NCBI GenBank assembly: GCA_035606695.1
Contig: DATNEW010000027.1
Span: 186,001 to 250,000 of the forward strand
Origin: Gemmatimonadaceae bacterium
GTDB taxonomy: Bacteria; Gemmatimonadota; Gemmatimonadetes; Gemmatimonadales; Gemmatimonadaceae
DNA: 64,000 nucleotides
Direction: 5' to 3'
Shown here: positions 37,777-60,087 of the stretch, piece after piece
Layout of the letters: each line of letters starts with the position of its first letter
Position numbering within the stretch: position 1 is the first letter of the stretch
Notes under the pieces: model-generated
What the model was told of the DNA's origin: nothing
Database searches by the model: none
What the model saw: only the letters and a program-made list of their open reading frames with translations
Translations under genes and position numbers: made by a program

Positions 37777-37806
37777 AAAAGGGCCCGCGCAAGGCGGGCC
37801 CTTTTT
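37777..37806 (+). terminator. Rho-independent terminator
   Basis: GGGCCCGC (37781-37788) and GCGGGCCC (37794-37801) form a perfect stem with a five-base loop, flanked by AAAA on the left and TTTTT on the right. This is the one textbook intrinsic terminator in the window. It separates the exported pair from the polysaccharide locus. Confidence 0.9.
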
Positions 37807-38113
37807 GTTTGGACACTCTGACCGACAGCCTGAGCTCGTTCGATACGCTAACTACGCTCGCGCGTCAGAATGACGAGCCGTTGGTGATACAAATCATCGC
37901 AGTCCGGTCGGGCCCTCTTGCCAGTGTCATGTCAGAGCTTAGCTTGGCTGATTCTGAATTGCCCCAGTGGAGTGGGAGCGGTCGGACTTCCGGTGATGTC
38001 GTCGTCGTAGTACCCGCCTTCCGACCGGAAGCGATCATCCGCGATCGAACGCAGCCTGCCGTCCGGCCGATGCCGGGCGCGGTGGCGCGTTCGGCGTGCT
38101 CTACGGGATGTCG

Positions 38114-38141
38114 GTGTTTGCGCCGTTTTGAGCGCAAACAC
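38114..38141 (+). promoter_or_regulatory. Perfect 10-bp leader hairpin
   Basis: GTGTTTGCGC (38114-38123) pairs with GCGCAAACAC (38132-38141) around the loop CGTTTTGA. It sits directly before the ops-like element and about 40 bases before the NusG-paralogue ATG. It could act as a pause or termination hairpin. Confidence 0.65.
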
Positions 38142-38142
38142 T

Positions 38143-38150
38143 GCGGTAGC
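38143..38150 (+). promoter_or_regulatory. ops-like element GCGGTAGC
   Basis: The E. coli RfaH recruitment site ops has the core GGCGGTAG. Here TGCGGTAGC matches seven of those eight bases and is followed by TTTGC. It lies one base after the hairpin and 32 bases before the start of a gene for an RfaH-like protein. The next bases, GCTTTGCAAGC, can form a small hairpin. Confidence 0.5.
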
Positions 38151-38182
38151 TTTGCAAGCATTGCACGAGGCTGGAGCAGCTG

Positions 38183-38620
38183 ATGGACCGGAAGTTCGAC
38201 GTCGCAAGCGAGATGCATGGTCTGTCGTGGCTGCTCGTCTATACGAAGCCCGGCGCCGAATCCTGGGCGGAGATCAATCTCCGGAACCAGGGCTTCACGA
38301 CGTTGATGCCGCGCGTGGTCGCGCGTGGACGGACGGCGCCGCTGTTTCCACGATACGTGTTCGTGGGCTGTCCGGCGGGAGCGCGAATCCAATCGCTGCA
38401 CAGCACCTTCGGCATTCTCTATGTCGTGCAGTGCGGCGAACAACCGGCGCGGGTGCCGGGCGACGTGCTCGAGGAGATTCGCGGCCGCATGAACGAGCAC
38501 GGCGTGGTGCACATCGACCGCGGCGCGCCGGCGGATGAGCTGTTCGCGCGCCGGGAGCGCGACCGGGTGCGCGCGTTGGTCAAGTTCGCACAGGCCGGCT
38601 TCCGGGTTCGCTCGGCATAG
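38183..38620 (+). CDS. Short NusG paralogue (RfaH/UpxY-like transcription antiterminator)
   Basis: 145 residues; GGAG lies six bases before the ATG. Residues ~14-110 fit the NGN domain of specialised NusG proteins: WLLVYTKPGAESWAEINLRNQGF, TLMPRVV, PLFPRYVFVG, HSTFGILYVVQCGEQPARVPGDVL. RfaH and UpxY have 160-180 residues with a C-terminal KOW domain; here only ~35 residues remain (ERDRVRALVKFAQAGFRVRS), which may be a stub of KOW. Such paralogues bind paused RNA polymerase at the start of long surface-polysaccharide operons and stop premature termination. It heads a 26-kb polysaccharide locus, which is exactly the expected place. It probably regulates that locus, and perhaps itself via the ops-like site in its leader. 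Confidence 0.85.
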   Translation: MDRKFDVASEMHGLSWLLVYTKPGAESWAEINLRNQGFTTLMPRVVARGRTAPLFPRYVFVGCPAGARIQSLHSTFGILYVVQCGEQPARVPGDVLEEIRGRMNEHGVVHIDRGAPADELFARRERDRVRALVKFAQAGFRVRSA

Positions 38621-38769: not shown

Positions 38770-40656
38770 ATGTGCGGCATCGCGGGAGTCGTCGGCGTAC
38801 CGGGCGACCAGCGCGGACTGGCCGAGCGGCTGCTGGGCGCGTTGCGTCATCGCGGGCCCGACGACGAAGGCATCGAACACGTCGCGCCGGCGGTCACACT
38901 CGTGCACAGCCGGCTCGCGATCATCGATCCCACGTCCGCCGGCCACGAGCCGATGCGCGACGAACGCGGCAACTGGATCGTGTACAACGGCGAGGTCTTC
39001 AACTATCGCGAGATCAACGCCCGCTTGGCCGAGCATGGCACGTCGGCCCGTACGCGTTCGGATACGGAGACGATCCTCCGCGCGCACGTCACGTGGGGCG
39101 ACGACGCCGTACAGCACTTCCGCGGCATGTTCGCCTACGCACTGTTCGAGCGCGCGTCCAACCGCGTGCTGATCACGCGCGACCGCCTCGGCATCAAGCC
39201 GATGTATCTCTCTCGTCCCGCCGCGGGAGGTCTCGTCTTCGCCAGCCAGCTTCGTGCCCTGCTCGCGCTCGGCAGCGAGATTGTGGCGCGGCGCGTCAAT
39301 CGCTCGGCGATCGAGAGTTTTCTCGCGCAGGGCGCCGTGCAGGGCGACGAGTCGATCGTCGATGGAATCGTGCAGCTCGCGCCGGGATCGCAACTGTCGC
39401 TCGACGCGGAGACCGGGCGGGAGTTGCGGTTGCGCCGCTATTGGCAATTGGCGCGCACCGATTTCGACGGATCGTCGCGCGCGGAATTCGTCGACCGATT
39501 GAGCCGCGTCGCCCGCGAGGCGGTTGGGCTGCGACTCCGCAGCGATGTGCCGATGGGACTCTTCCTGAGCGGCGGCGTCGACTCGACCGCGATGCTCGCG
39601 TTGGCCAGCGAGCACCAATCGAGCGGACTCCGCACGCTCACCGTCGGCTTCGATGATCCCGACTTCGACGAGACCGCGATCGCGCGGCGTACGGCGGCGC
39701 GATTCGGCGCGGAGCACGAGACGTTGACGCTCACCGCGAGCGACGTGCTCGGCTCCGTGCCCGCGCTGCTCGATGCGGTCGATCAACCCACGGTGGACGG
39801 CGCGAACATCTTCTTCGTGAGCCGCGCGGCACGCGCGAGTGGATTGACCGTCGCGTTGTCCGGGCTTGGCGCAGACGAGTTGTTCGGCGGCTACGCGAGT
39901 TTCTCCGACGTCCCGCGCGCTGTCGCGTGGCGACGCCGAATTCCCGGACGCGCGCTGGCGAACGTCGCGCGGTATGCGGCCGTCGGGCGCGCGGGCGCCA
40001 AGGTCGTCGAGGCGATGCGCCGCGATGCCGAGCCGTTGCAGATGTACTTGTTGCGCCGCGAGCTCTTTCTTCCCGACGAGCGCCGCGCGCTGCACACGCT
40101 GCCGTCCGAGGTCGATGCGGTGACGGGCCTTCGCCACGAACAGTTGGCGCTCGTGCGTCATCGCGCGGCGACGCTCGACCCGATCGCGGCCACGAGCCTG
40201 TTCGAGCTGGAGCTCTACATGGGCAGCATGCTGCTGCGCGACGGCGACGCGTTCAGCATGGCGGCGCCGATCGAGTATCGCGTGCCGTTTCTCGACCACG
40301 AGCTCGTCGAGACCGCGTTCGCGGCGCCGAGTGCGTGGAAGCGGCGCGATCCGCGGCCGAAGCCGTTGTTGCTCGACGCGGTCGGCGCGCGGATGCCGGC
40401 CGAAACGTGGCAAGCGCCCAAGCGGGGATTCACGTTTCCGTGGCAGAGTTGGCTCGGCGCCGGTGGCGCGCTCAACACGCTCGCGCGCGACGCCGTGCAC
40501 GACACGGCTGTGTGGCGCGATCTCGCGATCGATTCACGCGGTATCGCCGATTTGTGGCAGCGGTTCTCGAGAAATCAGCGTCGCGTCGGCGCGCTGCAGA
40601 TTCTCGGAGTCGTGGTGCTTCGCGACTACGCGGCCCGCCATGGTCTCACGGCCTGA
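38770..40656 (+). CDS. asnB: Asparagine synthase (glutamine-hydrolysing), AsnB type
   Basis: 628 residues. Cys2 (MCGIAG) is the N-terminal nucleophile of the glutaminase domain, supported by RLAIIDP, NGEVFNY and SDTETIL. The synthetase domain has the ATP-pyrophosphatase motif LSGGVDS at 266-272 and the FSxGGDE-like block LSGLGADELFGGY, then EYRVPFLDHELVE. It transfers ammonia from glutamine to an activated carboxylate. In polysaccharide loci of many bacteria such AsnB/WbpS-type proteins are thought to amidate a sugar uronic acid rather than aspartate. Here it heads the glycosyltransferase run and is ten bases from the next gene, which favours that role. Confidence 0.92.
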   Translation: MCGIAGVVGVPGDQRGLAERLLGALRHRGPDDEGIEHVAPAVTLVHSRLAIIDPTSAGHEPMRDERGNWIVYNGEVFNYREINARLAEHGTSARTRSDTETILRAHVTWGDDAVQHFRGMFAYALFERASNRVLITRDRLGIKPMYLSRPAAGGLVFASQLRALLALGSEIVARRVNRSAIESFLAQGAVQGDESIVDGIVQLAPGSQLSLDAETGRELRLRRYWQLARTDFDGSSRAEFVDRLSRVAREAVGLRLRSDVPMGLFLSGGVDSTAMLALASEHQSSGLRTLTVGFDDPDFDETAIARRTAARFGAEHETLTLTASDVLGSVPALLDAVDQPTVDGANIFFVSRAARASGLTVALSGLGADELFGGYASFSDVPRAVAWRRRIPGRALANVARYAAVGRAGAKVVEAMRRDAEPLQMYLLRRELFLPDERRALHTLPSEVDAVTGLRHEQLALVRHRAATLDPIAATSLFELELYMGSMLLRDGDAFSMAAPIEYRVPFLDHELVETAFAAPSAWKRRDPRPKPLLLDAVGARMPAETWQAPKRGFTFPWQSWLGAGGALNTLARDAVHDTAVWRDLAIDSRGIADLWQRFSRNQRRVGALQILGVVVLRDYAARHGLTA

Positions 40657-40666
40657 CTCCGAAGCA

Positions 40667-41899
40667 ATGCGAATTGTCTTCGTTGCCTCGGCGGCGCAGT
40701 TGGGCGGCGCGGAGCTCAGTCTTCTCGACGTGTGCGCAAGCGTGCGGGCCGCGCGGCCCGGATGGCCGCTGGCGCTCGTCGTCCCTGGCGAGGGTCCACT
40801 CGCTGAGCGCGCGATCGCCGAACGTATTGACGTCATCACGGCGCCGTATCCCGATGCGCTCGCGCGATTCGGGGACTCATCGTGGGATGGCGTTGGAAAA
40901 AACGACAACGCTTCGATGCGTCGTATGTTGTCAGCCGCGTCGGCGGCGACGCGATACGGATTTGCGCTGCGCTCGCGGCTTCGTGCGCTGCAACCGGACA
41001 TCGTACACGCCAACGGATTCAAGGCGCAGCTGCTGGCCGCTTGGTGGCGGCCGTCGAACGCACGCGTGATCTGGCACATGCGTGACTTCGTCAGCAATCG
41101 GCCGTTGATGGCGCGTGCGCTGCGCGCATCGTCGCACCGATGCGACTTGGCCATCGCGAACTCAGCGAGTGTCGCGGCGGATACGCGCGACGTGTGCGGA
41201 CGCGCGCTCGCGATCGAGGTGGTGCACAACGCGATCGATCTCGAGCGGTTTTCGCCGACCGGAGCGACGCTCGATCTCGATGCACTGGCGAATCTGCCGT
41301 CTGCGCCCGAAGGCACGATTCGCGTCGGTCTGCTCGCGACGTTGGCGAACTGGAAAGGACACGACGTGTTCGTCGATGCGATGGCGATGCTCCCCGCTGA
41401 TTTGCCGGTGCGCGGCTACGTCATCGGCGGATCGCTATACGAAACGCTCGGCAGCCAGCATTCGCTCGAGCGAGTGCGAGCGCACGTCGTGGCGTGCGGC
41501 ATGTCGAGCCGCGTCGGGGTGACCGGCTACGTCGAACGCTCGGACGCCGCGCTGCGCGCGCTCGACGTCGTCGTGCACGCGAGCGAGCGCGCCGAACCGT
41601 TCGGGCGCGTTGTCGCGGAAGCAGCGGCGTGCCGTCGCGCCACGATCGTGAGTCCACGCGGAGGCGTGACGGAGATCATCGAGGATGGCGTGACGGCGTT
41701 GACGCACGAACCGGGAAACGCAAAGTCACTCGCCGGGCAGATCGAGCGGCTCGTGCGCGAGCCGGCATTGCGAGAACGCATCGCGTCGGCGGCGAATGCG
41801 GTCGCGGTCGATCGCTTCGATCGCGCCCGGCTCGCCGACGCGCTGCTTCCGATCTACGACAGCCTTCATGCGCACGAGCGCGCGCGAGTTGCCACGTGA
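40667..41899 (+). CDS. Glycosyltransferase family 4 (GT-B)
   Basis: 410 residues from ATG 40667, ten bases after the asnB-type stop. It opens with the GT4 nucleotide-sugar fold: RIVFVASAAQLGGAELSLLDV, and PDIVHANGFKAQLLA. The donor-binding second half has VGLLATLANWKGHDVFVDAM and the E-x7-E motif in EPFGRVVAEAAAC, followed by SPRGGVTEIIEDGV. It probably adds a sugar to the undecaprenyl-linked repeat unit on the cytoplasmic side. Its stop overlaps the next start by four bases. Confidence 0.88.
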   Translation: MRIVFVASAAQLGGAELSLLDVCASVRAARPGWPLALVVPGEGPLAERAIAERIDVITAPYPDALARFGDSSWDGVGKNDNASMRRMLSAASAATRYGFALRSRLRALQPDIVHANGFKAQLLAAWWRPSNARVIWHMRDFVSNRPLMARALRASSHRCDLAIANSASVAADTRDVCGRALAIEVVHNAIDLERFSPTGATLDLDALANLPSAPEGTIRVGLLATLANWKGHDVFVDAMAMLPADLPVRGYVIGGSLYETLGSQHSLERVRAHVVACGMSSRVGVTGYVERSDAALRALDVVVHASERAEPFGRVVAEAAACRRATIVSPRGGVTEIIEDGVTALTHEPGNAKSLAGQIERLVREPALRERIASAANAVAVDRFDRARLADALLPIYDSLHAHERARVAT

Positions 41900-43026
41900 A
41901 GCTTCTGCACGTGTACAGCGGCAACCTGTATGGTGGCGCGGAAGCATTCCTCGCGGCGCTTGGCGCGTTCGCCGGTTCGCTTTCGGCCGAACAGCATTTC
42001 GCCCTCTGCTTCGAGGGTCGCCTGTCGCGAGAGCTCGAGACCGCCGGCGTGCCGGTCCATCAGCTGGGTGAAGCTCGCGTGCGCTACCCGTGGACCGTGC
42101 GGCGTGCGCGGTCGCGATTGCGCGACGTCATGCGCACGCACCGAATCGATGGCGTGATGTTTCATTCGACGTGGGCCTATGCGCTGTTTGCGGCGACCGC
42201 GCGGCAGATGGATCGCACCGTGGCGCTTTACCTCCACGGCCCGGCGCGCGGGACACATTGGCTCGACCGGTTGGCACGGCGCGTGACGCCGGATGTGCTC
42301 ATCGCCAACAGCGCATATACGGCCGCGGTAAGCGCCGAGATGTTCGCCGGCGTGCCGGCATCGATCGTGGCCTGTCCCGTCCCGGCGCCACCGGCGTTCG
42401 AGGCCGATACGAGGCTGGCGGTGCGGCAGGAGCTCGGAATCGGCGACGATGCCGTCATGATCGTTCAAGCGAGCCGGATGGAACCGTTCAAGGGTCACCG
42501 GGAGCTTCTGCATGCGCTCGCGGCGCTGCGCGATGTGCCGAGCTGGGTGTGCTGCATCGTCGGCGGCCCGCAGCGTCCCGCTGAAGAAGCGTATTACGCC
42601 GAACTGGTCGCGCTGCCGGCGACGCTCGGCATCGCGGATCGCGTGCACTTCACTGGCGAGCGGCGCGACGTGCGGCGCTTGCTCGCGGCGGCGGACATCC
42701 ATTGCCAACCGAACACGGCGCCCGATGCGTTCGGCATCGCGTTCGTCGAAGCGATGTACGCCGGCCTTCCCGTCGTCACCACCGGGCTGGGTGGTGCATT
42801 AGAGGTAGTAGATGAGCATTCTGGAATACTCGTTCCGTCCGGCGAGGCGCGCGCGCTCGCCTCGGCGCTCGCCATACTGATTCACGAGCCGGCAACGCGA
42901 CACCGCCTCGGCGCCCACGGACCGAGCCGGGCGGCGGCCCTCTGTGATACCGCGACGCAATGCCAACGGCTAGTCGACGTGGTGACGGACCGCATCACGC
43001 TCACTCGCGCAAGTACTCCGGCATGA
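41896..43026 (+). CDS. Glycosyltransferase family 4 (GT-B)
   Basis: 376 residues from GTG 41896, in a GTGA overlap with the previous gene. N-terminal fold marker: KLLHVYSGNLYGGAEAFLAAL. Donor half: MIVQASRMEPFKGHRELLHAL, then QPNTAPDAFGIAFVEAMYAGLPVVTTGLGG, where Asp replaces the first Glu of the usual E-x7-E motif. It may therefore use a slightly different donor contact. The N-terminus resembles the preceding enzyme (GGAE after the first strand), so the pair may have come from an old duplication. Confidence 0.88.
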   Translation: MKLLHVYSGNLYGGAEAFLAALGAFAGSLSAEQHFALCFEGRLSRELETAGVPVHQLGEARVRYPWTVRRARSRLRDVMRTHRIDGVMFHSTWAYALFAATARQMDRTVALYLHGPARGTHWLDRLARRVTPDVLIANSAYTAAVSAEMFAGVPASIVACPVPAPPAFEADTRLAVRQELGIGDDAVMIVQASRMEPFKGHRELLHALAALRDVPSWVCCIVGGPQRPAEEAYYAELVALPATLGIADRVHFTGERRDVRRLLAAADIHCQPNTAPDAFGIAFVEAMYAGLPVVTTGLGGALEVVDEHSGILVPSGEARALASALAILIHEPATRHRLGAHGPSRAAALCDTATQCQRLVDVVTDRITLTRASTPA

Positions 43027-44438
43027 CAATGCTGGGCCCGGTCGTGCCGCCGAACGCTTCCACGAATCCATACGTGACGCCGTACGCGCCTTCGTATGGC
43101 GCGGAGTTCGTGGCGCGACCGTCGGCGCGACGCAAGCGCGAGCCGTGGGGCGCCGCCGAATGGTTCATGCTCAGCCAGACCGCCATTCCGGCGCTGCTGT
43201 TTCTTCCGGGCGCACAACCGGCACGGCTGCTCATTCGCGTCGCGGCGTTCGCCACGAGCCTGCTGTTGTTGTTGCCGTGGCGAGGGTCACGCAACACGCT
43301 GAAGCGTCATCCCAGCCGGATATGGCTCGCGCCGACGATGCTGTATCTGACATTGATGATCTTCCACCCGACGACGAATTCGCTGCTCGCCGGGGTCGCG
43401 CAAGTGGCGCTGTACGTGTCGGTGTTCGCACCGGCTTATTGGATGCCCAAGTTCGTGCGCTCGGCGTCGCAGCTCGACCGGCTCATCACCATTCTCTGGG
43501 TGTGCAGCACGGTCAATGCGGCGGTCGGTGTGATGCAGGTGTACGACCCCGATCGCTGGATGCCGCGCGAATTTTCCGCGATGGCGGTGTCGAGCATGTA
43601 TCAGCTCGACGCGGCGCGGTACGACGGACCGAACGGCCGCCGCATCACGCGTCCGCCCGGCTTGTTCGATACGCCGGGCGCCGTCGCCGGCCCGGCGATG
43701 TTCGCCGCGTTGATCGGTCTCGTCATGTTCGCACGCCGCGGCGCGATGTGGCGCAAGCTGCTCGGGCTCGTATCGTCGGGCATCGGCCTCACCGCGATTT
43801 ACCTCGCGCAAGTTCGTACGAGTTTTCTCATCGTCCTCGGCATGCTGCTGGTCTACGCGCTGATCAGTGCGGCATTCGATCAACGTCGCGTGCGTACCTT
43901 GTCGCTTCTCGTCGGCACCGGGGTCGTGCTCGCGGGGTCGCTCGCCGCGTCGTTGCTGCTCGGTGGCCAGGCGACGATCGACCGCCTCAACACGCTCGTC
44001 GCCGGTGATCCCGTGAGCGTGTACTACAACGCGGGACGCGGTTCGCAGCTGGACTATGCGGTTCAGACGCTCGCGCCGAAATATCCGTTCGGCGCGGGGC
44101 TCGGACGCTGGGGGATGATGCGCGCGTACTTCGGCAACGCGTCGAATCCCAATTCGCCGCAGATCTGGGCGGAGCTGCAGCTCCCGGCGTGGATTCTCGA
44201 CGGCGGACTGGTGCTCGTCGCGTTGTACGTGCTGGCGCTCATTGCCACGCTCTCGCAGCAATTTCGCGTTGCTCGGCGATCGACGGATCCGCTGCTCGGC
44301 GAATCCGCTCGAACGATCCTCGCGCTCTCCGCCGGGACGCTGGCGCTCATCTTCGGCTTCACGCCGTTCACCACGCAGATCGGCATTCAGTTTTGGGTGC
44401 TCGCGGGTGCCTTGCACGGCGCGGTCGAGCGGCAATGA
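43023..44438 (+). CDS. O-antigen ligase/polymerase-type membrane protein (Wzy/WaaL family)
   Basis: 471 residues, ATGA overlap with the preceding gene. After a ~50-residue cytoplasmic start come about ten membrane helices, for example AWFMLSQTAIPALLFLPG and LLIRVAAFATSLLLLLPW, and later LIFGFTPFTTQIGIQFWVLAGAL. The large outer loop between the late helices contains DYAVQTLAPKYPFGAGLGRWGMM, the G-x-G-rich region typical of the Wzy_C family. It is the only such protein in the locus, so it is the best candidate for the polymerase that joins repeat units in the periplasm. A ligase role cannot be excluded. Confidence 0.82.
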   Translation: MTMLGPVVPPNASTNPYVTPYAPSYGAEFVARPSARRKREPWGAAEWFMLSQTAIPALLFLPGAQPARLLIRVAAFATSLLLLLPWRGSRNTLKRHPSRIWLAPTMLYLTLMIFHPTTNSLLAGVAQVALYVSVFAPAYWMPKFVRSASQLDRLITILWVCSTVNAAVGVMQVYDPDRWMPREFSAMAVSSMYQLDAARYDGPNGRRITRPPGLFDTPGAVAGPAMFAALIGLVMFARRGAMWRKLLGLVSSGIGLTAIYLAQVRTSFLIVLGMLLVYALISAAFDQRRVRTLSLLVGTGVVLAGSLAASLLLGGQATIDRLNTLVAGDPVSVYYNAGRGSQLDYAVQTLAPKYPFGAGLGRWGMMRAYFGNASNPNSPQIWAELQLPAWILDGGLVLVALYVLALIATLSQQFRVARRSTDPLLGESARTILALSAGTLALIFGFTPFTTQIGIQFWVLAGALHGAVERQ

Positions 44439-45625
44439 ACGTCGTGTTGGATGGTCGTTCGCTCGCGTCGCCCGCGATGCGCGGGTGGGATCGATATACG
44501 GTCGGTCTCGTGCGCGCGCTCGTCGCGCGCGGCATCGCGGTCACGCTCGCGCACCGCGAGCGCAGTCCGCTGTGCCTGCCGCACGTCGAGGGCATCGATT
44601 GCCGAACGGTCGCGCTTGCCGATCGGGGCGGACTGTCGTGGGAGCAAGTGTCTCTGCCGCGATATCTCGCTCAGGCAAAAGCCGACGTCTATCACGCTCC
44701 CGCCGAGCATGGTGTGCCGCTCGTGTCGCCGTGTCCGGTGACGTTGACGGTGCACAGCGTCACGACCGCGAGCTACCGCTCGCTGATCGCGTCGGGTGTT
44801 CTCGCCGGCCGAATCTCCGACTATCTGGACGTACCGAACGCCGGCGCCGTTCGCTCGATGAAGGACGTGTATTATCGGTTTCAGCTTCGCCGCCCCGAGC
44901 ACATCTTCACGCCATCGCGCTTCTGTCGCGACGAAGTCATCGAACACCTTGGCGCCGCGCCGGAGCGCGTAACGGCAACGCCGCTCGCGGTCGGCTCCGA
45001 GTTCACCGCGCCAATGACGGATGGTGCGACACGCGCCGCGACGCTGGCGCGACACGGCGTCGTTGCGCCGTATCTGCTCTACGTAGGCGGTTTCGAGCGG
45101 CACAAGAATGTCGCGGGCCTGCTCGACGTCTTCGCGGAAGTGAAACGCGTTCGCGCGGATCTGTCGCTCGTCATCGTCGGGTCGGGCGCTGTACCAGATG
45201 ACCTTCGCGCATGTGCATCGCGGCGGGGCCTGCGAGTCGATCGCGACGTCCGCTTCCTCTCGAACGTGACGGCCGATCTCGTTGCACTGTACGACGCCGC
45301 CGAGCTCTTCGTCTCGCTTTCCTGGCGCGAAAGCTTCGGCTTGCCGGCACTCGAAGCCATGAGCCGCGGCGTATCCGTCATCGTCAGCGGCCTCGGCGCG
45401 GCGCGTGAAGTCGTCGGCGACGTTGGGACGCTCGTGAATCCAAGCCGGCCTGATGAAATCGTTCGCGCGATTGTCGGCGCACTCGCGATGTCGCCCTCGG
45501 CGCGCGAGCAGCAGCGGTCGCGCGCCGTTCGGCGTTCGCGCGAATTCAGCTGGTCGGCGACCGCGGATCGAACGATTGCCGTCTACGAGGCGCTGGTGCG
45601 CCGCGAGCTCGTGGCCGCGTCGTGA
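44435..45625 (+). CDS. Glycosyltransferase family 4 (mannosyltransferase-like)
   Basis: 396 residues, ATGA overlap. Start MNVVLDGRSLASPAMRGWDRYTVGL matches the GT4 group with VDGRxL...GIGRY-type openings, often mannosyl- or rhamnosyltransferases. The donor half has YLLYVGGFERHKNVAGLLDVF and E-x7-E in SWRESFGLPALEAMSRGVSVI, followed by VGTLVNPSRPDEI. Probably cytoplasmic and membrane-associated, adding one sugar of the repeat unit. Confidence 0.88.
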   Translation: MNVVLDGRSLASPAMRGWDRYTVGLVRALVARGIAVTLAHRERSPLCLPHVEGIDCRTVALADRGGLSWEQVSLPRYLAQAKADVYHAPAEHGVPLVSPCPVTLTVHSVTTASYRSLIASGVLAGRISDYLDVPNAGAVRSMKDVYYRFQLRRPEHIFTPSRFCRDEVIEHLGAAPERVTATPLAVGSEFTAPMTDGATRAATLARHGVVAPYLLYVGGFERHKNVAGLLDVFAEVKRVRADLSLVIVGSGAVPDDLRACASRRGLRVDRDVRFLSNVTADLVALYDAAELFVSLSWRESFGLPALEAMSRGVSVIVSGLGAAREVVGDVGTLVNPSRPDEIVRAIVGALAMSPSAREQQRSRAVRRSREFSWSATADRTIAVYEALVRRELVAAS

Positions 45626-46785
45626 GCGACGATATCACCACGACGTACGTGCTCGTCAGCGGCGACTTCACGACGTGGGGCGGCATGGACCGCGCGAATT
45701 ATGCGCTGGCGTGGTATCTCGCGGACGGGCTCGGGGTGTCGGTGCATCTCGTCGCGCACGGGGTTGCCGAACCGTTGGCATCGCACCGCAACGTCACGTG
45801 GCATCGCGTCGACAAACCATTCGGCCGCTACGGCCTCGCGTCGCCCGTGCTCGCGTCACGCGGCCGGCGTGTTGCGCGGGAGCTGAGCCGCGTCGGGGCG
45901 CGCGTCGTCGTCAACGGCGGCAACTGCGTCTGGTCCGACGTGAACTGGATTCACGCGGTGCATGCCGCGTGGGCCAATCGCGACACGCATGCGCCCCGGT
46001 TGTTCCGTTTGCGCAACGGTCTGCAAAAGCACGTTGCTCGGCGTGCCGAGGGGCGTGCGCTTCGCACGGCCGCCACGATCATCACGAATTCGCGGCGCGC
46101 GCGATCGCAGGTGATCGAGCATGTCGGCGTTCCGCCCGAATGCGTGACTGCCGTCTACTACGGTATCGATCCGACGATCTTTCGGCCCGCGTCTCGTGCC
46201 GAGCGCGATGCGGCGCGCTCCCGTCTCGGTTGGACGCTCGACCGACCCGTCGTGTTGTTCATCGGCGCGCTCGGACACGATCGCAACAAGGGCGTCGACG
46301 TGCTGGTGGATACCTGGCGTCGTCTGTGCGCCGACGAGCGATGGGACGTCGACCTCGTGCTCGCCGGCGGCGGCGCGGAAGTCGACACGTGGCGCGCGAC
46401 GGTGGCCGCCGAGGGGCTCGAACGTCGCATCGACTTCTTCGGTTTCACGAAACAGATCCCTGATTTGCTCGCCGCGGCGGACGCGCTCGTGAGTCCAACA
46501 CACTACGATGCATACGGCCTGGGCGTACACGAGGCACTGTGTTGCGGACTACCGGCGTTCGTGACGCGATCGGCCGGCGTTGCGGAACGGTATCCGGAAT
46601 CGCTTTCGGGATTGCTGCTCGACGATCCGCCGCAAGCCGCCGATCTCGCCGCGCGCATGCGCTCCTGGCGCGAGCGCATGCCGGAATTCCGAGTCGCCGT
46701 GGCACCGTTCGGTGAAAAGCTGCGCACGCGCACCTGGGACGATATGGCTCGAGACATCAAACAAAAGCTCGACGACACACGTTGA
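45622..46785 (+). CDS. Glycosyltransferase family 4
   Basis: 387 residues from GTG 45622 (GTGA overlap). Start TYVLVSGDFTTWGGMDRANYALAWYL has the GGMDRAN-type acceptor loop. The second half reads VVLFIGALGHDRNKGVDVLVDTW, then SPTHYDAYGLGVHEALCCGLPAFVT; the first acidic residue of E-x7-E is Asp-Ala-Tyr here. HAVHAAWANRD suggests an acceptor-site His pair. Donor and linkage unknown. Confidence 0.87.
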   Translation: MSDDITTTYVLVSGDFTTWGGMDRANYALAWYLADGLGVSVHLVAHGVAEPLASHRNVTWHRVDKPFGRYGLASPVLASRGRRVARELSRVGARVVVNGGNCVWSDVNWIHAVHAAWANRDTHAPRLFRLRNGLQKHVARRAEGRALRTAATIITNSRRARSQVIEHVGVPPECVTAVYYGIDPTIFRPASRAERDAARSRLGWTLDRPVVLFIGALGHDRNKGVDVLVDTWRRLCADERWDVDLVLAGGGAEVDTWRATVAAEGLERRIDFFGFTKQIPDLLAAADALVSPTHYDAYGLGVHEALCCGLPAFVTRSAGVAERYPESLSGLLLDDPPQAADLAARMRSWRERMPEFRVAVAPFGEKLRTRTWDDMARDIKQKLDDTR

Positions 46786-47987
46786 TGTCATCCACGCACG
46801 ACGTCGTTCTCGTGATGATCGAGCCGCCGTTGCCGTTCGGCAACGCCGCGGCGCGCTGGTATTACGTGCTGCTCAAGCAGCTCGTCACGCGCGGACATCG
46901 CGTGCGTGCGTTCGCGACAACCCGCACGCGTGCGCAGGCCGACGAAGCCCTCGCGCTGTTTTCAGAGCCCGAGTATGACCTGCGCTGTTACCCGCAGCAG
47001 GAGCGGCGAACGTATGCGGCCGCCAAGTGGGCCAGCGTGCGCGAGCCCTTCTCGTACGTGTTCAGCGAGCGGATGCGCGCCGATCTCGGCGGCGAGCTGG
47101 CGCGCGGATACGGCGTGTTGCACTTGGAGCAGCTGTGGAGCGGATGGTTGGCGCCACGCGACACGACACGGACTGTGGTCAACGTTCACTTCCTTTATAC
47201 GGTCGACTTGGCACCGCAGGCGGGCGACCCACCGCGGCCGTTCTCGGAACGTACGCGTTTCCGGCACACGCAGTGGGCGGAGCAGCGGCTGCTGCGCCGG
47301 TTTTCAACGATCACGACGCTGACGCCACGCCTTTCGCAATGCACGGAGCGCATCAATCCGCGCGCGCGCGTGCAGACGATCCCGCTGGCGCTGGATCACA
47401 CACTGTATGACGCATCGCCGGTTCGCACCGGCTCGCGCGCGCCAGTCGTGGGACTTATCGGCTCGTTCGACTGGCCGCCGAGCCGCCGCGCCGCGCGCCG
47501 GCTGATTGAGTCGCTGTGGCCGCAGATCAAAGCGCGAGTGCCGGACGCGCGATTGGTCGTCGTCGGCCGCTCCGCTGCGCGCGCACTCGCGGAGTTTCGT
47601 GCCGTCACGGGTCTCGAGATTCACGAGGACGTGCCCGACGCGCGACCGTACTTCGTGGATCTCGACGTGCTGTTGTACGCGCCGACCGAAGGAAGCGGCA
47701 TGAAGGTGAAAGTGCTCGAGGCGATGGCGCACGGAGTTCCCGTCGTCACGACGACGGCCGGTGCCGAGGGCCTCGATGTCATCGACGGCGTGCATGCGGA
47801 CGTGTCCGACGTCGATGCGGTGCTCATCGACCGCTGCGTCGCCTTGTTGCGCGATCCGTCGCTTCGAGCTCGCCGCGCCGAACACGCGCGAACGCTCGTA
47901 CGCACGCAATGTGATCCCGAACGCTGTGTTGCGCTCGTCGAGTCCGTGCATGCGCGCATTGCGGCACCGGTCGAGCAAACGACATGA
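46785..47987 (+). CDS. Glycosyltransferase family 4
   Basis: 400 residues. ATG 46785 shares one base with the previous stop (TGATG); a TTG three bases earlier is possible but unneeded. Opening DVVLVMIEPPLPFGNAAARWYYVLLKQL is followed by GLIGSFDWPPSRRAARRLIESLWP in the donor domain and E-x7-E in YAPTEGSGMKVKVLEAMAHGVPVVTT. The SGMKVKVLEAMA wording is typical of the PEP-CTERM/exosortase-type (TIGR03087-like) GT4 enzymes. Adds a sugar to the growing chain. Confidence 0.88.
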   Translation: MSSTHDVVLVMIEPPLPFGNAAARWYYVLLKQLVTRGHRVRAFATTRTRAQADEALALFSEPEYDLRCYPQQERRTYAAAKWASVREPFSYVFSERMRADLGGELARGYGVLHLEQLWSGWLAPRDTTRTVVNVHFLYTVDLAPQAGDPPRPFSERTRFRHTQWAEQRLLRRFSTITTLTPRLSQCTERINPRARVQTIPLALDHTLYDASPVRTGSRAPVVGLIGSFDWPPSRRAARRLIESLWPQIKARVPDARLVVVGRSAARALAEFRAVTGLEIHEDVPDARPYFVDLDVLLYAPTEGSGMKVKVLEAMAHGVPVVTTTAGAEGLDVIDGVHADVSDVDAVLIDRCVALLRDPSLRARRAEHARTLVRTQCDPERCVALVESVHARIAAPVEQTT

Positions 47988-49114
47988 CGGCCACGGCCCC
48001 TCCGGCAATTTCACCGCTACCGGCCGCGCCGCGTTCCGTCGCGCCGAGTGCGCCGGAAAAGAGTGGCCGGTACTTGCCGACGCTCGACGGATGGCGCGCG
48101 CTCGCGATAGCCGGCGTCATGATCGCGCACGGCACGGCCGCCGTCTTCGGACCAACCGGCAGCCATCCGTGGGCCGCGGCCTTCCGCGCGACGCGATACG
48201 GCGCACTCGGCGTCGATGTGTTCTTCGGCATCAGCGGATTCCTCATCTGCACGCGCTTGTTGGAAGAGAGAGCGCGGTTCGGCCGCGTCTCGCTCGCGGG
48301 ATTTTACATCCGTCGCGCGTTTCGGATTCTGCCGCCGTACGTGGCGTACCTCGCGATCGCGGCGGGGCTGGGACTGGTGGGTGTGTTGCCTGTGGCGACT
48401 CGCGAGATCGCCGCGTGCGTGCTCTTCGTGCGCAACTACTATCTGAGCGCCCAGAGCGGCGGATGGTACACCGCGCACTTCTGGTCCCTCGCCGTCGAGG
48501 AGCACTTCTACCTGCTGTGGCCTGCGCTGCTGGTCTTCGCGCGTCGTCGCGCGCTGCTCGTCGCGGCCATGCTCGCGATTGCCGTCGGTCTTTGGCGAGT
48601 GGCCGCGTTTCGCGTTGCGCCAATACCCGGCGTTTCATTTTACGAACGCACCGACATTCGGCTCGACGCGCTCATGTGGGGGTGCTGGACCGCGATCCTC
48701 GTGTCCGAGCATCGTGCGTCGCTCACGCGGTGGCTCAGGCCCCGGGTGTGCGCGCTGCTTGCGCTTGCGTTCGTCGTGTGCGTGCGCTGGTCGCCGCCGC
48801 TCGCCATGACGTGGCAGGCGCTCATCGTGCCACTCGTGCTGCTCGGCACCGTGCTCCATCCGAGGACGTTCGTCGGTCGGATGCTCGACACCGCGGCCAT
48901 GCGATGGATCGGCGTGCTGTCATACAGTCTCTACCTGTGGCAGCAGCTTTTTCTGACGCCGCTCGATACGCGCGCGCCGGCCCTCGGAATGCTTCAGCGT
49001 TGGCCCGTGAACATCGTCGCCGTGTTCGCCGCGGCATCGTTGAGCTACTACCTCGTCGAGCGTCCGTCGATGGCGGTTGGCCGCCGACTCGCTGCGCGGC
49101 AAGCGAATCGATGA
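47984..49114 (+). CDS. Membrane acyltransferase family 3 (OafA/NodX-type)
   Basis: 376 residues with about ten membrane helices. Family marks: LPTLDGWRALAIAGVMIAHG (the conserved His), GVDVFFGISGFLICTRLLEE, FYIRRAFRILPPY and FWSLAVEEHFYLLWPALL (SLxVEExFY). The protein moves an acyl group, usually acetyl, from the cytoplasmic side onto a sugar at the periplasmic side. It would O-acetylate the exported glycan. It overlaps both neighbours by four bases. No periplasmic SGNH domain follows, so it is the short form. Confidence 0.9.
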   Translation: MTATAPPAISPLPAAPRSVAPSAPEKSGRYLPTLDGWRALAIAGVMIAHGTAAVFGPTGSHPWAAAFRATRYGALGVDVFFGISGFLICTRLLEERARFGRVSLAGFYIRRAFRILPPYVAYLAIAAGLGLVGVLPVATREIAACVLFVRNYYLSAQSGGWYTAHFWSLAVEEHFYLLWPALLVFARRRALLVAAMLAIAVGLWRVAAFRVAPIPGVSFYERTDIRLDALMWGCWTAILVSEHRASLTRWLRPRVCALLALAFVVCVRWSPPLAMTWQALIVPLVLLGTVLHPRTFVGRMLDTAAMRWIGVLSYSLYLWQQLFLTPLDTRAPALGMLQRWPVNIVAVFAAASLSYYLVERPSMAVGRRLAARQANR

Positions 49115-50643
49115 CCCGTTCTCGATTCGCCGGCTGGAACTTCGCGAGCGCGCTGCTCTTCGCCATCGTCACGATGGTGGTTGGCGTGTTCGCGACACCG
49201 TGGCTGCTGCAATGGCTCGGTGAAGATCGCTTCGGCGCGTACAAGGCGGTCATCGACTGGTTCGGCTACCTCGCGCTGTTGGACTTCGGCATCCTCGGCG
49301 CCATGCAGCCGTTGTTCGCCGAAGCGCTTGGCAAATCCGATACGTCGGCGATGGGCCTGCTCGTGGCGACCGGCTCGCGGTTGTATGCGCGAGTCGTCGG
49401 CGTAATGATCGTGGTGGGGTTGATCATCACTTCGATGATCACACATCTCATTCCCGTGCCCGCGCCACTCACGGGAGAGCTGCGCATAGCGTCGTTGATC
49501 GTCGTCGCGGGTCTGCTGCTCCTGCCGCTGTCCGCGCCGTTTCGCATCGTGCTCGAGAGCGATCAACGCGGATATCGCGTCAACAACCTGCTCGTCGTGC
49601 AGTCGCTCGCGACGACGGCGCTTTCGCTGGGCTTCGCGTACTACGGCGGGGGCATCGCCGGCCAGGCGCTCGCGGTACTGATCGCATCGCTGCCGTATCA
49701 TTTGCGATTGCTGACGTACGGACGACGGCGATTCCCGCGCGAGATGCGCGATGCGGCCGCGGCGACGCCGGCTGATGCGGCCACGGCGCGCGCACGACTC
49801 CTGTCGCTCAACCGTCCAACGTTCGTGCTCAACTTGTGCGGCCGCGTCGGCTTGTTGAGCGACAACATCGTCATTGCCGCGCTGCTCGGTCCAGCCGCGG
49901 TAGTCCCGTTCTTCGCTACGCAGCGCATTGCCGTGATGGTGCAGGGACAACTCCAATCGCTTGGCAACGCGACGTGGGCGGGCCTCGCGCAGTTGCACGC
50001 GGCGGGCGAACGCGAATTGTTCAATCGCCGGCTGGTCGATTTGACCGGCCTCGTCGCCGCGCTCGGCGTGGCGACGTTGATTCCCGTCATCGCCTTCAAC
50101 GAAGCATTCGTCACACGCTGGCTCGGCGCGCAGCGGTTCGGCGGTCAAGCGCTGACATTGGTCGCCGTGCTGAACGCATTCCTGCTGTCGATCTCGTCGC
50201 TGTGGGGTTGGGCGTTGAATGGAACCGGCCGCGTCGAACAGATCGTTCGCCCATTCGGCATCCAGACCGTCGTGAATCTCGTCATGTCGATCGCGTTGAC
50301 CAAAGCACTGGGTCTCATCGGACCGATGCTCGGCACGACGCTCGGGTATCTGTCCGTCTCCATTTGGTATTTCCCGGTGCTGATGCACCGCGCGTTCGGC
50401 GTTTCCGGTGGAGAGCTGCGACGCGCCATCGCCAAGCCGGTGTTGCTGGGTACACCGTTCGGCATCGCGACGTGGATGCTCGCGCGCACGTACGCGCCGA
50501 CGGGATGGTTGATGCTGCTCGCCGAGATGATGCTTGCGACGGCGTGCTATTTGTGTGCGTGGTGGCTCGTGCTGCTGCCAAAGAGTGAGCGGCACCTGTA
50601 CACGAAGCGCGTCGCGGGCGTATTGCGTTATCAATCCGCATGA
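49111..50643 (+). CDS. Wzx-type polysaccharide flippase (MOP superfamily)
   Basis: 510 residues from ATG 49111 (ATGA overlap); a frame to the left as far as 47761 is antisense-like noise. Predicted 12-14 membrane helices, starting FAGWNFASALLFAIVTMVVGVFATP and with an inside loop ERFGAYKAVIDW-type motif (DRFGAYKAVIDWFGYLALLDFG). It moves undecaprenyl-linked repeat units to the periplasm, where the Wzy-type protein polymerises them. With the Wza, Wzc and Wzy candidates it completes a Wzx/Wzy pathway. Confidence 0.88.
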   Translation: MTRSRFAGWNFASALLFAIVTMVVGVFATPWLLQWLGEDRFGAYKAVIDWFGYLALLDFGILGAMQPLFAEALGKSDTSAMGLLVATGSRLYARVVGVMIVVGLIITSMITHLIPVPAPLTGELRIASLIVVAGLLLLPLSAPFRIVLESDQRGYRVNNLLVVQSLATTALSLGFAYYGGGIAGQALAVLIASLPYHLRLLTYGRRRFPREMRDAAAATPADAATARARLLSLNRPTFVLNLCGRVGLLSDNIVIAALLGPAAVVPFFATQRIAVMVQGQLQSLGNATWAGLAQLHAAGERELFNRRLVDLTGLVAALGVATLIPVIAFNEAFVTRWLGAQRFGGQALTLVAVLNAFLLSISSLWGWALNGTGRVEQIVRPFGIQTVVNLVMSIALTKALGLIGPMLGTTLGYLSVSIWYFPVLMHRAFGVSGGELRRAIAKPVLLGTPFGIATWMLARTYAPTGWLMLLAEMMLATACYLCAWWLVLLPKSERHLYTKRVAGVLRYQSA

Positions 50644-51608
50644 TGCTCGCCGAGACCTTGCTGATTCGATCGGCGCCGATGTGGGTCCGCGTGACCTCGT
50701 CCCTCGTTCGGCGATTGCCGGCGGCACGCTATCGCGCGATTCGCGCGATGTCGGGATTCGACACCGAGCCGTTCATCGGCGCACTGCCGCGCAGCGCCGG
50801 CGGTCTTCGCTTCGTGTGCGATCTTCGCGACGTCATCGCGCGCGACGTGTGCTTCACGGGCATGTACGAGCCGCAGGAAACGTCGCTCGTCAACGCCATC
50901 CTTCGTCCTGGCGACACCTTCGTCGACGTCGGCGCGAACTGGGGATATTTCACGCTGCTCGGAGCGCATGCGGTCGGCTCGGGCGGGCGCGTGATCAGTC
51001 TCGAGCCGGATCCGCGTCTGTTCGCGATGTTACGCGCGCACGTCGATCTCAACGACCTGGACCAGGTGACGTGTCTGCCGACCGCGGCCGCCGCGGAGTC
51101 AGGTGAGCTCACGCTTTCTGGTTTCGCGGAGGACGACGGCAACTTCGGATTGTCGCGCGTCATGGCCTCGCGCGCCGACGCCGCCGCGGCGTTTGTCGTC
51201 AACGCGGATACGCTCGACTCCACGCTCGCCGCCGCGGGCGTCGATCAGATCACGTTGCTGAAGATGGACATCGAAGGGTTCGAGGCGAAGGCGCTGCGCG
51301 GGCTCGATGGGATGCTCGGCGAGCAACGTGTCGAGCACCTGATCGTCGAGTTGCACCCGGCATACCTCCGCGAGCACGGTGATGACTCGCAGGCGCTCGT
51401 TCGGCGCGTACTCGACTTCGGCTACACCGCGTGGGCCATCGATCATTCACCGGCTGCGACGCGGCGTGCCGCGTACAGTCGCGGCGACCAGACGATGCTG
51501 CTGCGAGCGATGCACGCCGCCGACGCGCTCGACCGATGGCCGCACGTGTTGTTCGCGCGGCCTCGCTCACGCGTGCACGCGACCATCGAGGCCGGGGCGC
51601 AAATATGA
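50640..51608 (+). CDS. FkbM-family methyltransferase
   Basis: 322 residues. SAM motif I is VDVGANWGYFTLLGAHAV; the acidic strand-2 end is ISLEPDPRLFAML; the FkbM hallmark IDGFE-type motif appears as LLKMDIEGFEAKALRGL, followed by HLIVELHP. FkbM proteins O-methylate sugars or polyketides. First of three FkbM genes in the locus, so the final glycan probably carries several methyl groups. ATGA overlap with the flippase gene. Confidence 0.87.
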   Translation: MMLAETLLIRSAPMWVRVTSSLVRRLPAARYRAIRAMSGFDTEPFIGALPRSAGGLRFVCDLRDVIARDVCFTGMYEPQETSLVNAILRPGDTFVDVGANWGYFTLLGAHAVGSGGRVISLEPDPRLFAMLRAHVDLNDLDQVTCLPTAAAAESGELTLSGFAEDDGNFGLSRVMASRADAAAAFVVNADTLDSTLAAAGVDQITLLKMDIEGFEAKALRGLDGMLGEQRVEHLIVELHPAYLREHGDDSQALVRRVLDFGYTAWAIDHSPAATRRAAYSRGDQTMLLRAMHAADALDRWPHVLFARPRSRVHATIEAGAQI

Positions 51609-52840
51609 GTACGCTCATGACGCCGGCCGCCGGTCCCATGGCAACCAGTAGCCAAGCGATATCGCGGCGGTGGGTGATCATCACCGGGGAGTATCCGCCG
51701 CAACCGGGTGGAGTCGCCGACTACTCGCGCCTGATTGCACGCGGACTTGTGGCCGCCGGCGACAGCGTGACGGTCTTCGCGCCACCGGCGCCAGGCGCGG
51801 ACCCGAGCGACAAAGACGTCGAGGTGCGGCGACTCCCCGATCGATTCGGCCTCCGATCGCTGCGCGCAATCGATGCGTATCTCGACACGCACGGCGGTTC
51901 ACCCCAGTTGCTCGTGCAGTACGTCCCCCACGCCTTCGGTCGCCGAGCGATGAACGTGTCGTTCTGTCTGTGGCTGTGGCGTCGGCGTGCACGCCGACCG
52001 TTCGTCGTGTTTCATGAAGTGGCATTTCCGATACAGTCGGGTGCACGATTGCGCCATCAGGCGCTCGGACTCGTCACGCACGCGATGGCGGCGATCGTCG
52101 AACGCGCATCGGCGCATTCGTTCATCCCGACCGCGGCGTGGAAGACCGTCTTGCGCCGCGTCGCCGGCCGCAAGGCCGACGCGTGTGCGTGGATGCCCGT
52201 GCCAAGCAACATTGATTGCGACGTGTCGAATGACGAACGCCACGCCGCGCGTTCTCGGCTGGGAGCGCCACCGCTGCGCTTGATCGGCCACTTCGGCACC
52301 TTCGGTCAGTATCACAATCGGTTGATGCGGCGTCTCGTGCCTGAACTTCTGGCCGGCGATTCGGACCGCGTCATGCTGCTCGTCGGCCGCGGCAGCGACG
52401 CATTCCGGGATCGTCTCGTCGCGTCAGACCCGAACCTCGCGCCCCGCGTGATCGCGCGCGGCGCCGTGAGCGCCACCGACGCGGCGCGCGTCCTCAGCGC
52501 GTGCGACCTGTTGGTGCAACCATATGAAGACGGCATCAGCGGACGCCGCGCGTCGGCGCTTGCCGGTCTCGCGTTGGGACGCCCCGTCGTCAGCACGGTG
52601 GGCCGTCTCTCGGAGGCGATGTGGCAAACGAGCGATGCAGTCTCGCTCGTGCCTGCCGAAGACGTCGAGGCGACGTCGCGCGCGCTGGCATCACGTGTCG
52701 ATGCACTCTTGAACGCGCCCGAGACGGCAGCTGCGCTCGCCGATCGCGGCGCGACGCTGTATCGAGCACGATTCGACGTTTCGCACACGATTCGTGCATT
52801 GCGCGCCGCGGCGGCTCAGCGCGCGGGATCGGCGCCGTGA
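51605..52840 (+). CDS. Glycosyltransferase family 4 (divergent)
   Basis: 411 residues, ATGA overlap. Start VIITGEYPPQPGGVADYSRLIARGL is a clear GT4 opening. The donor half is unusual: LIGHFGTFGQYHNRLMRRLVPELL replaces the usual VGRL..KG block, and YEDGISGRRASALAGLALGRPVVST takes the place of the E-x7-E motif. The catalytic geometry may differ from its neighbours, or it may use a different donor class. Confidence 0.82.
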   Translation: MSTLMTPAAGPMATSSQAISRRWVIITGEYPPQPGGVADYSRLIARGLVAAGDSVTVFAPPAPGADPSDKDVEVRRLPDRFGLRSLRAIDAYLDTHGGSPQLLVQYVPHAFGRRAMNVSFCLWLWRRRARRPFVVFHEVAFPIQSGARLRHQALGLVTHAMAAIVERASAHSFIPTAAWKTVLRRVAGRKADACAWMPVPSNIDCDVSNDERHAARSRLGAPPLRLIGHFGTFGQYHNRLMRRLVPELLAGDSDRVMLLVGRGSDAFRDRLVASDPNLAPRVIARGAVSATDAARVLSACDLLVQPYEDGISGRRASALAGLALGRPVVSTVGRLSEAMWQTSDAVSLVPAEDVEATSRALASRVDALLNAPETAAALADRGATLYRARFDVSHTIRALRAAAAQRAGSAP

Positions 52841-53715
52841 ACCTCACTCTACGCGTCGCGCGGCTCATTCCGCCGCGATGGGCGTCGTCGATCGCCGCGC
52901 TGCAATGGAAGCATCCCGTCTTGGGCGCTGCGTATCGCTGGGCGAGGAAACGCGCGGTCGATCGGGCGGGCATCATCGAGCATGGTGTCGGGCGCGGACT
53001 GCACATCGATGCCTCCGGCGCGAACGCCGGCTATCTGCTCGGCACGACGGAGCCCGCCATCCAACGACTCTTCGCGCGGCTTGTCTCGCCCGGCGACACC
53101 GTGATCGACGTCGGCGCCAACATCGGATTCTTCACGCTCATCGCCGCCCGGCTCGTTGGCCCGAAGGGATGTGTGATTGCAGTCGAAGCGTCATCCGATA
53201 ACGCATCTCGCATTCGAGCGAATGCTCACGCCAACGGTTTCATGCATGTGACAGTGCGCTCGGAGGCAGCTGCCGCGAGCGATGGAACGGCCGAGTTTCT
53301 GGTCTCGGCAGATCCAACGCTTGGCCGGCTCGCGAGCATCTCGCCGACGACGAATATGCAAATCGGTGTCACGCGAGTCCCAACGCGCGCGCTGGATTCA
53401 CTGTTCGCCGAGGGTGTGCTCGCGCCGCCGAATCTCATGAAGATCGACGTCGAAGGCGCGGAGGTTGATGTTCTCGAAGGTGCGCGCCGGCTCATCGCCA
53501 GCGCGCGACCCGTGTTGCTCGTCGAGCTTCACGGAACGAACGCTCCAGTCGCGGCAGCGCTGCGTGACGCGCGATACGTCGCCGCCGTTGTCGGCTCGTC
53601 GAGCGATGTCGAGACGGCGCCCTGGGACGCGTACGTCGTCGCGGTGCCCGAAGAGTCGGCGTCGCTGCTCGATGTGGTTCGCGAGGTTGGCGTGGAGACG
53701 AAGAGTGCGCGCTGA
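52837..53715 (+). CDS. FkbM-family methyltransferase
   Basis: 292 residues from GTG 52837 (GTGA overlap); a frame opening at 52621 lies inside the previous gene. Motif I is VIDVGANIGFFTLIAARLV, the acidic strand end IAVEASSDNASRIRANA, and the FkbM mark LMKIDVEGAEVDVLEGA followed by LLVELHG. Second of three FkbM enzymes. It resembles the third (53755) in spacing but they are not close copies. Confidence 0.87.
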   Translation: MNLTLRVARLIPPRWASSIAALQWKHPVLGAAYRWARKRAVDRAGIIEHGVGRGLHIDASGANAGYLLGTTEPAIQRLFARLVSPGDTVIDVGANIGFFTLIAARLVGPKGCVIAVEASSDNASRIRANAHANGFMHVTVRSEAAAASDGTAEFLVSADPTLGRLASISPTTNMQIGVTRVPTRALDSLFAEGVLAPPNLMKIDVEGAEVDVLEGARRLIASARPVLLVELHGTNAPVAAALRDARYVAAVVGSSSDVETAPWDAYVVAVPEESASLLDVVREVGVETKSAR

Positions 53716-53754
53716 CGCCACACGCGAGATACGCATGATCGCACGGGTTTCGGC

Positions 53755-54678
53755 GTGAACGTCGTGCTTCGTCGCGGCACGCGCGCAGCGTTGCGCGCAT
53801 GGGCGCGCACCGGGCGAGCGTCGGGTTGGTTCTACCGCACTGTGGAACACCTGGGCCCCGCACTCGCCGAGGCGACGCCGATCGCGACCGTGCTGCCGAA
53901 CGGCTGCCGCGTGTCGTGCGATCTCCGCGATCACGTTCAGCGGCAGATCTTCTTTTTCGGTGTGTACGAGCCGGTGCTCGCGAGCTTGTTCGTGAGGTTG
54001 CTGCGGCCCGGAATGACCGTCGTCGACGGCGGGGCCAACGTTGGTCAGTACACGCTTCTCGCCGCGTTCGGTGTCGGCGCGACCGGAAGCGTGCACAGCT
54101 TCGAACCGGTGCCCCATACGTTCGAGCGACTCACCGCGCACGTCAGAGCGAACGGGCTCACGAACGTGCATGCCAATCGAGTCGCGCTCTGGAATGAATC
54201 CACCGAGCTGACGCTCGGTCTTGCTGACGATCAGGAAAACAACGCCGGCGCGTACAGCGCCGGAGTTCGCGACTCGACGAGCTCCTTCACCGCATCCGCA
54301 ATTCGCCTGGACGACTATTGTGCGCAGCGAGACATCACGCGCGTTCACCTCGTGAAGCTCGACGTCGAAGGCGCCGAACTACAGGCGCTGCACGGGATGC
54401 AGCAGATCCTCGAGCGCGATCGTCCGGTTGTTTTCGTCGAAGTGTGCCGCGAGACCGCCAGCCGATTTGGCTACGATCACGCCGAGACGTGGAAGTACCT
54501 CGTCGATGGCCTTGGCTACGCCGCGTGGGTCGTTCGCGACGGCGAGCTGCAGAGTGTGCAACACGACGAGGTGCGCGAGCAGGAGAACGTGCTGTTCGCG
54601 GTCGAGGCCCCCGCGATCGATGCGCACGTGCTCGCGCCTCGCGGCGCGTTGCGATGGGCGGCGTCGGGTCATGACTGA
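53755..54678 (+). CDS. FkbM-family methyltransferase
   Basis: 307 residues from GTG 53755. This is the largest gap inside the run (39 bases), so a separate ribosome entry is likely here. Motif I is VVDGGANVGQYTLLAAFGV, where Gly replaces the usual Val/Asp in the first turn; the acidic end is HSFEPVPHTFERL, and the FkbM mark LVKLDVEGAELQALHGM. The end overlaps the next gene by eight bases. Confidence 0.87.
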   Translation: MNVVLRRGTRAALRAWARTGRASGWFYRTVEHLGPALAEATPIATVLPNGCRVSCDLRDHVQRQIFFFGVYEPVLASLFVRLLRPGMTVVDGGANVGQYTLLAAFGVGATGSVHSFEPVPHTFERLTAHVRANGLTNVHANRVALWNESTELTLGLADDQENNAGAYSAGVRDSTSSFTASAIRLDDYCAQRDITRVHLVKLDVEGAELQALHGMQQILERDRPVVFVEVCRETASRFGYDHAETWKYLVDGLGYAAWVVRDGELQSVQHDEVREQENVLFAVEAPAIDAHVLAPRGALRWAASGHD

Positions 54679-57009: not shown

Positions 57010-57013
57010 GCTC

Positions 57014-59346: not shown

Positions 59347-59418
59347 GGCTGGTTGCTTCATGCGCACCTGTTACATTCGTGGGCCCGAAGGTCGTGCCGA
59401 TTCATGGGTTGCGACTCC

Positions 59419-59431
59419 GTTGACGGTCAAC
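59419..59431. promoter_or_regulatory. GTTGACGGTCAAC palindrome before the export genes
   Basis: Perfect 6+1+6 palindrome whose left half contains TTGACG, a near-consensus -35 hexamer. It lies 25 bases before the Wza-type ATG, in the only sizeable gap (109 bases) between the glycosyltransferases and the export genes. It may be an operator or promoter for the export part. The matching -10 is weak. Confidence 0.4.
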
Positions 59432-60082: not shown

Positions 60083-60087
60083 CAGCC

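Follow-up and report, generated by a model that had tools for sequence, protein, structure and literature searches.

The window analysed here is the whole stretch of 64,000 nucleotides from contig DATNEW010000027.1 of a Gemmatimonadaceae bacterium, and the features discussed below are collected in Table 1. It contains a gene for a short NGN-domain protein at the head of a glycan locus that spans 25 kb or more, with colinear genes continuing for about 2.8 kb beyond position 63543. The genes of the locus encode an asparagine-synthase-type protein, glycosyltransferases, an acyltransferase and FkbM methyltransferases, along with Poly_export/SLBB, Wzz/tyrosine-kinase type and GDP-mannose-dehydratase/epimerase proteins. 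The terminator-like hairpin at the start of the leader was also seen among the weak, sub-threshold Rfam matches; neither in the window nor in four related loci did any Rfam family reach its gathering score.

Table 1. Features of the NGN gene, its leader and the downstream locus (window coordinates)
Feature	Position	Strand	Basis or remark
T-tract hairpin of strong terminator-like form (AAGGGCCCGCGCAAGGCGGGCCCTTTTTG), end of the upstream gene and boundary of the leader	~37777..37808	+	read from sequence
10-bp perfect hairpin, RNA half of the composite	arms 38114-38123 / 38132-38141, 8-nt loop	+	sequence, folding; compensatory changes in orthologous elements
ops-type core GCGGTAGC (38143-38150), then TTTG	38143..38154	+	single T separates core from hairpin
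Likely Shine-Dalgarno site (with GGAG) for the NGN gene	38173..38178	+	read from sequence
145-aa RfaH-lineage NGN protein without complete KOW domain	38183..38620	+	PF02357, TIGR01955, PDB profile, tree, AF2
Glycan locus, same strand as the NGN gene	38770..63543	+	domain searches

The preliminary description of this DNA had reported a hairpin, the 8-mer GCGGTAGC, a GGAG site and the ATG of an NGN protein, and the sequence is indeed as described. The hairpin arms GTGTTTGCGC and GCGCAAACAC enclose the loop CGTTTTGA, the 8-mer corresponds to positions 2-9 of the E. coli ops (GGCGGTAGCGTG), and the ATG of the NGN gene lies 32 nt 3′ of this composite. Folded as RNA, the hairpin (38114-38141) gave −19.7 kcal/mol with a z of −2.3, and 6 of 200 shuffles folded equally well. 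By itself the 8-mer occurs at chance frequency (3 copies in the window against 2.09 expected), so that the significance of the element lies in the combination of its parts, their position and their conservation. A scan of 37700-38800 for sigma70-like promoters gave no match. The intergenic sequence 3′ of the NGN gene contains, at about 38695-38730, an AT-rich stretch (ATATATTTAATGCAAATTCTCATAA) in GC-rich surroundings, which could hold a second, internal promoter downstream of ops.

Orthologues were taken from Gemmatimonadaceae and Gemmatimonadetes records, some of them from genomes listed as the same genus or family. The hairpin and GCGGTAGC were found together at every Gemmatimonadaceae orthologue with enough flanking sequence, mostly upstream of the gene and, in one subclade, downstream of it. 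When the first nine orthologous genes from 98 related genomes were considered, with the window and its paralogue counted, seven had the composite just upstream and one had it downstream, while the last lay at a contig end. The upstream position is seen in the window, in the in-genome paralogue (L014) and in L008 and L016-L021; the composite lies 131-146 nt 3′ of the stop codon in L022, L023 and L024, and is also downstream in L091/L028. In this subclade the element precedes a gene of the glycosyltransferase-4 family (L022:4749, L023:5675, L024:562, L091:1964), and since it follows the NGN gene, the factor gene falls outside the transcript segment after the element. Glycan genes were found 3′ of the element in the loci examined.

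When the Gemmatimonadaceae elements were aligned, GCGGTAGC was invariant in 12 of 12, a count of related sequences and not of independent events. Paired cells made up 90% of the hairpin alignment as against 82.6% in shuffles, a value that none of 500 shuffles attained and that also lay above those of slides, and five pairs were changed on both sides among the 12 elements in a compensatory manner. Outside the element, anchored leaders were at chance identity (about 0.25), as compared with 0.93 in the bin of the ops core. The gap between stem and ops is variable (0-4 nt), ops position 1 is a T in the window and a G in L014 and L017, and the elements of L017, L018, L023 and L024 showed only weak structure in isolated folding (z −0.7 to −1.3). 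The same-genus orthologue L017 carries the E. coli ops unaltered, as GGCGGTAGCGTGC (L017:9938-9950). Conservation in orthologous leaders was one test on which the preliminary description had staked its proposal, and this is what we observed: the hairpin and GCGGTAGC are kept and the other parts of the leader are not.

The element is also specific within the genome. A covariance model (R1) gave two strong matches in 5.9 Mb, one before each NGN gene (46 bits, E<1e-8, covariance-model E-values being rough), and its third-best match reached 21.6 bits. In the 98 related genomes, strong R1 matches (E<1e-6; those found had E≤3.3e-7) occurred only where the genome has the short NGN gene. Because R1 had been built with these same elements, a hold-out model (R2) was made from ten elements of other genomes; this model, from which the present genome was left out, ranked the window element first in the 5.9 Mb (25.4 bits, E=1.8e-4, next match 20.9) and scored the element of the paralogue (L129) at 19.5 bits, inside the genomic noise. 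The second short NGN gene of this genome (G000:C27:85369-85871; L129:870-1375) has its own hairpin-ops, and its locus holds NeuB, cytidylyltransferase and class-III aminotransferase genes of the nonulosonic-acid type.

Candidates for further sites were rejected. The sequence GCGGTAGCTTTG has three copies in the 5.9-Mb genome, two of them preceding the two NGN genes, and the third (in C49) comes without a hairpin. A trans regulon of more ops sites was considered and set aside, the third-best R1 match (21.6 bits) having no matching hairpin-ops in an NGN or glycan leader. The R1 match in one related genome (G056, E=2.5e-5) is a GC-rich hairpin, but the NGN paralogues of that genome are NusG only. 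With one strong site per NGN gene, control by each factor appears to be cis-restricted, in contrast to E. coli RfaH with its trans regulon. The earlier suggestion that the factor may load on its own leader is probably right.

The NGN protein has a single NGN domain (PF02357, E=2e-10) and matches the RfaH model TIGR01955 (E=3e-15) at positions 1-97 of 159 only, its 56.5 bits lying below the full-length equivalog cut-off of 144.5 bits. A profile of 13 orthologues compared with the PDB retrieved RfaH chains only, and the top fold match of the predicted structure (AF2, mean pLDDT 82) was 5OND, which is RfaH bound to ops DNA. In the tree, the short Gemmatimonadaceae NGN proteins formed one clade (100/100) on the RfaH side, apart from both the genome's own NusG and the phylum's second NGN-KOW family; the support for their join to RfaH-type proteins is moderate (82/78), with a long branch leading to E. 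coli RfaH. Another observation concerns a separate Gemmatimonadaceae NGN-KOW family (L012, L013, L015), whose genes lie directly 3′ of a small winged-helix-like regulator gene and have no ops close upstream.

Compared with that of alphaproteobacterial RfaH, the KOW domain is shortened in all Gemmatimonadaceae orthologues aligned, about 21 residues that make up its first half being absent, and the NGN beta-hairpin is shorter by 8 residues. The conserved C terminus, RERVRALVKFAQAGFRVRSA, corresponds in the alignment to the second KOW half and is predicted by AF2 to form a single helix (125-143 or 125-138, according to the alignment used); a KOW able to switch from a helical hairpin to a beta barrel and to bind S10 is not found in this protein. 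As the predicted structure resembles autoinhibited RfaH overall (rmsd 4.6-5.4 over 141 alignment columns), the C-terminal helix may mask the RNAP-binding face. The ops-contact residues K10 and Q24 of RfaH are kept as K22 and Q36, K10 in all orthologues, while H20 is replaced by N in all of them (N32 here), R23 is variable, and R73 is F76 in this protein and R in 8 of the 13 orthologues. With these contacts conserved only in part, the details of recognition may be different.

We propose that the element acts as a composite site at which the RfaH-type factor of the adjoining downstream gene is recruited, a reading to which we give a probability of roughly 0.8. The conservation of the element, the tree and the genes of the locus all bear out the original claim of an ops-type element next to an NGN gene of RfaH lineage which heads a long glycan operon outside the Proteobacteria. 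Pausing, binding and antitermination at the element would follow by homology. In the E. coli ops, a C3:G8 pair forms in the non-template strand, RfaH reads G5 and T6, and the polymerase pauses at U11 (PMC5995543). The bases C3, G5, T6 and G8 are invariant in the elements described here. Were the leader transcribed, the RNA hairpin would form and RNA polymerase would pause over GCGGTAGC, exposing CGGTAG of the non-template strand to be bound by the NGN domain of the factor. Because the stem ends 0-4 nt before GCGGTAGC, a polymerase paused at the counterpart of U11 would have it some 10-14 nt upstream of the RNA 3′ end, near the position of known pause hairpins. Once loaded, the factor could remain on the polymerase, shut out NusG and Rho (Rho is present in the genome) and make transcription processive through the long glycan operon, so that hairpin-assisted pausing would lead to NGN capture of the non-template ops and then to antitermination against Rho. 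In the subgroup with upstream elements, the factor gene itself would be inside the controlled transcript. With most of KOW missing, the factor should act on elongation alone, without S10-mediated recruitment of ribosomes.

Among the other explanations, the one that fares best, though we find it unlikely, is a LoaP-like mode in which the factor binds the RNA hairpin and GCGGTAGC is merely a pause that buys time. LoaP does load through an RNA hairpin in the leader (PMC12691694), and the hairpin described here is conserved, with a sequence preference in its arms (TTTGC/GCAAA); however, its loop varies in length and sequence where that of LoaP is a fixed UNCG hairpin, the arms differ among subclades and phyla, and it is GCGGTAGC that is invariant. 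A double-stranded DNA operator, with the inverted repeat bound by a dimeric transcription factor at or near a promoter, is improbable. A perfect 10-bp repeat would suit such a role, to which the promoter scan without a match also lends something, but orthologues differ by several bases in the spacing of the half-sites, so that these would fall out of the helical phase that a dimer needs, and the repeat is always on the sense side just 5′ of GCGGTAGC, even lying downstream of the NGN gene in one subclade. Very improbable, too, is an intrinsic terminator or attenuator to which GCGGTAGC would be incidental: the hairpin does sit in a leader, and UpxY factors act on termination within their own leaders (PMC7819879), but the hairpin was not called in an intrinsic-terminator scan, it is followed by TGCGGTAGCTTTG with no T tract, and GCGGTAGC is the most conserved part of the element. 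The attenuator of the preliminary description, made of two mutually exclusive stems that can be drawn at 37980-38031 (GGTCGGA/TCCGACC and CTTCCGGT/ACCGGAAG), did not hold up, since the region folds like its shuffles (z 0.11) and is unconserved in orthologous leaders. That the hairpin and the 8-mer, of which about two copies per window are expected, came together by chance is hardly credible in view of the conservation among orthologues and the genome-wide specificity.

The same layout is found in other groups. Alphaproteobacterial rfaH genes, which have kept KOW, have a hairpin joined to GCGGTAGC 48-166 nt past the stop codon, followed by sugar genes (L029:10514-10563, L063:10506-10555 and 18 similar loci). 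A hairpin also lies directly 5′ of GCGGTAGCGTGC in the E. coli K-12 rfb JUMPstart. A conserved stem-loop in JUMPstart was reported by Weinberg in 2010 (PMC2864571). In the alphaproteobacterial elements the 3′ arm TTCACCCGGA is conserved beyond the needs of pairing, with CACCC in 20 of 20. The Gemmatimonadaceae-built model R2 gave no convincing detection of the alphaproteobacterial elements, and as the hairpin arms differ between the phyla, their kinship rests on layout and GCGGTAGC and not on one model. In the fetched loci, whose sequences are related and not independent, a stem (uninterrupted, of at least 6 Watson-Crick pairs, ending at most 4 nt from the site) adjoined 19 of 41 GCGGTAG sites near NGN genes as against 4 of 104 other sites, and a C followed GCGGTAG in 39 of the 41 compared with 34 of the 104. 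The far higher frequency of such stems near NGN genes argues for a hairpin-ops architecture that is shared across groups and was probably not invented independently. The 'independent' origin proposed at first is not supported: in the tree the protein falls among RfaH proteins and apart from the NusG of its own genome, and the composite recurs in the two settings above, which makes shared descent or transfer likelier than convergence.

The best reading of this locus would thus be a cis-restricted RfaH-type antitermination element with a JUMPstart layout, in a new phylum and with a KOW-less factor. To our knowledge, the RNA hairpin beside ops, seen in JUMPstart, has no settled role, and the present comparison provides evidence across phyla that it is a conserved partner of ops. 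In a factor lacking half of KOW we would have a natural experiment that parts the control of elongation from the fold switch and from ribosome recruitment. More tentatively, and with some doubt on our side, we suggest that the part retained from the second half of KOW is one fixed C-terminal helix over the RNAP-binding face, which might be freed without fold switching by a bipartite signal (nascent RNA hairpin and non-template-strand ops) in the factor's own leader, and that the hairpin half might be an ancestral functional part of RfaH sites generally, that of E. coli JUMPstart included. The recruitment modes of NusG paralogues encoded in their own operons have been called unknown (PMC7593976). 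Here the ops site that accompanies a cis-encoded RfaH-type factor is sharply conserved, in a phylum that has none in the literature searched, where, with incomplete coverage, we found no published description of a hairpin-ops in Gemmatimonadota.

Among known systems, E. coli RfaH/ops shares with the locus an RfaH-lineage NGN protein, a core equal to ops positions 2-9, glycan operons and a position in the leader. The locus differs in having one cis site per factor gene and no trans regulon, in a protein that is missing the first half of KOW, with H20 changed to N and, in this copy, R73 to F, and in which the residue E48 of the autoinhibitory salt bridge is not conserved, and in the pause-inducing TG, which is at positions 11-12 of the E. 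coli ops and is shifted by one position here (TTTG). JUMPstart (RF01707) likewise has a hairpin directly 5′ of GCGGTAGC in the leaders of polysaccharide operons; however, it comes from Gammaproteobacteria and the present element from Gemmatimonadota, the hairpin sequence is another one, and the window element reaches only 14 of the 35 bits set as gathering score. UpxY of Bacteroides is also a NusG paralogue that heads the polysaccharide operon under its control and acts in its own leader (PMC7819879), but the sequence match is weak (NF033644, 18.7 bits against a cut-off of 100). Finally, LoaP and the dfn hairpin have in common with this locus a specialised NusG paralogue and an RNA hairpin in the leader (PMC12691694), but LoaP reads a UNCG-type hairpin with a fixed loop and has no known ops, whereas here the loop is variable and the ops is invariant.
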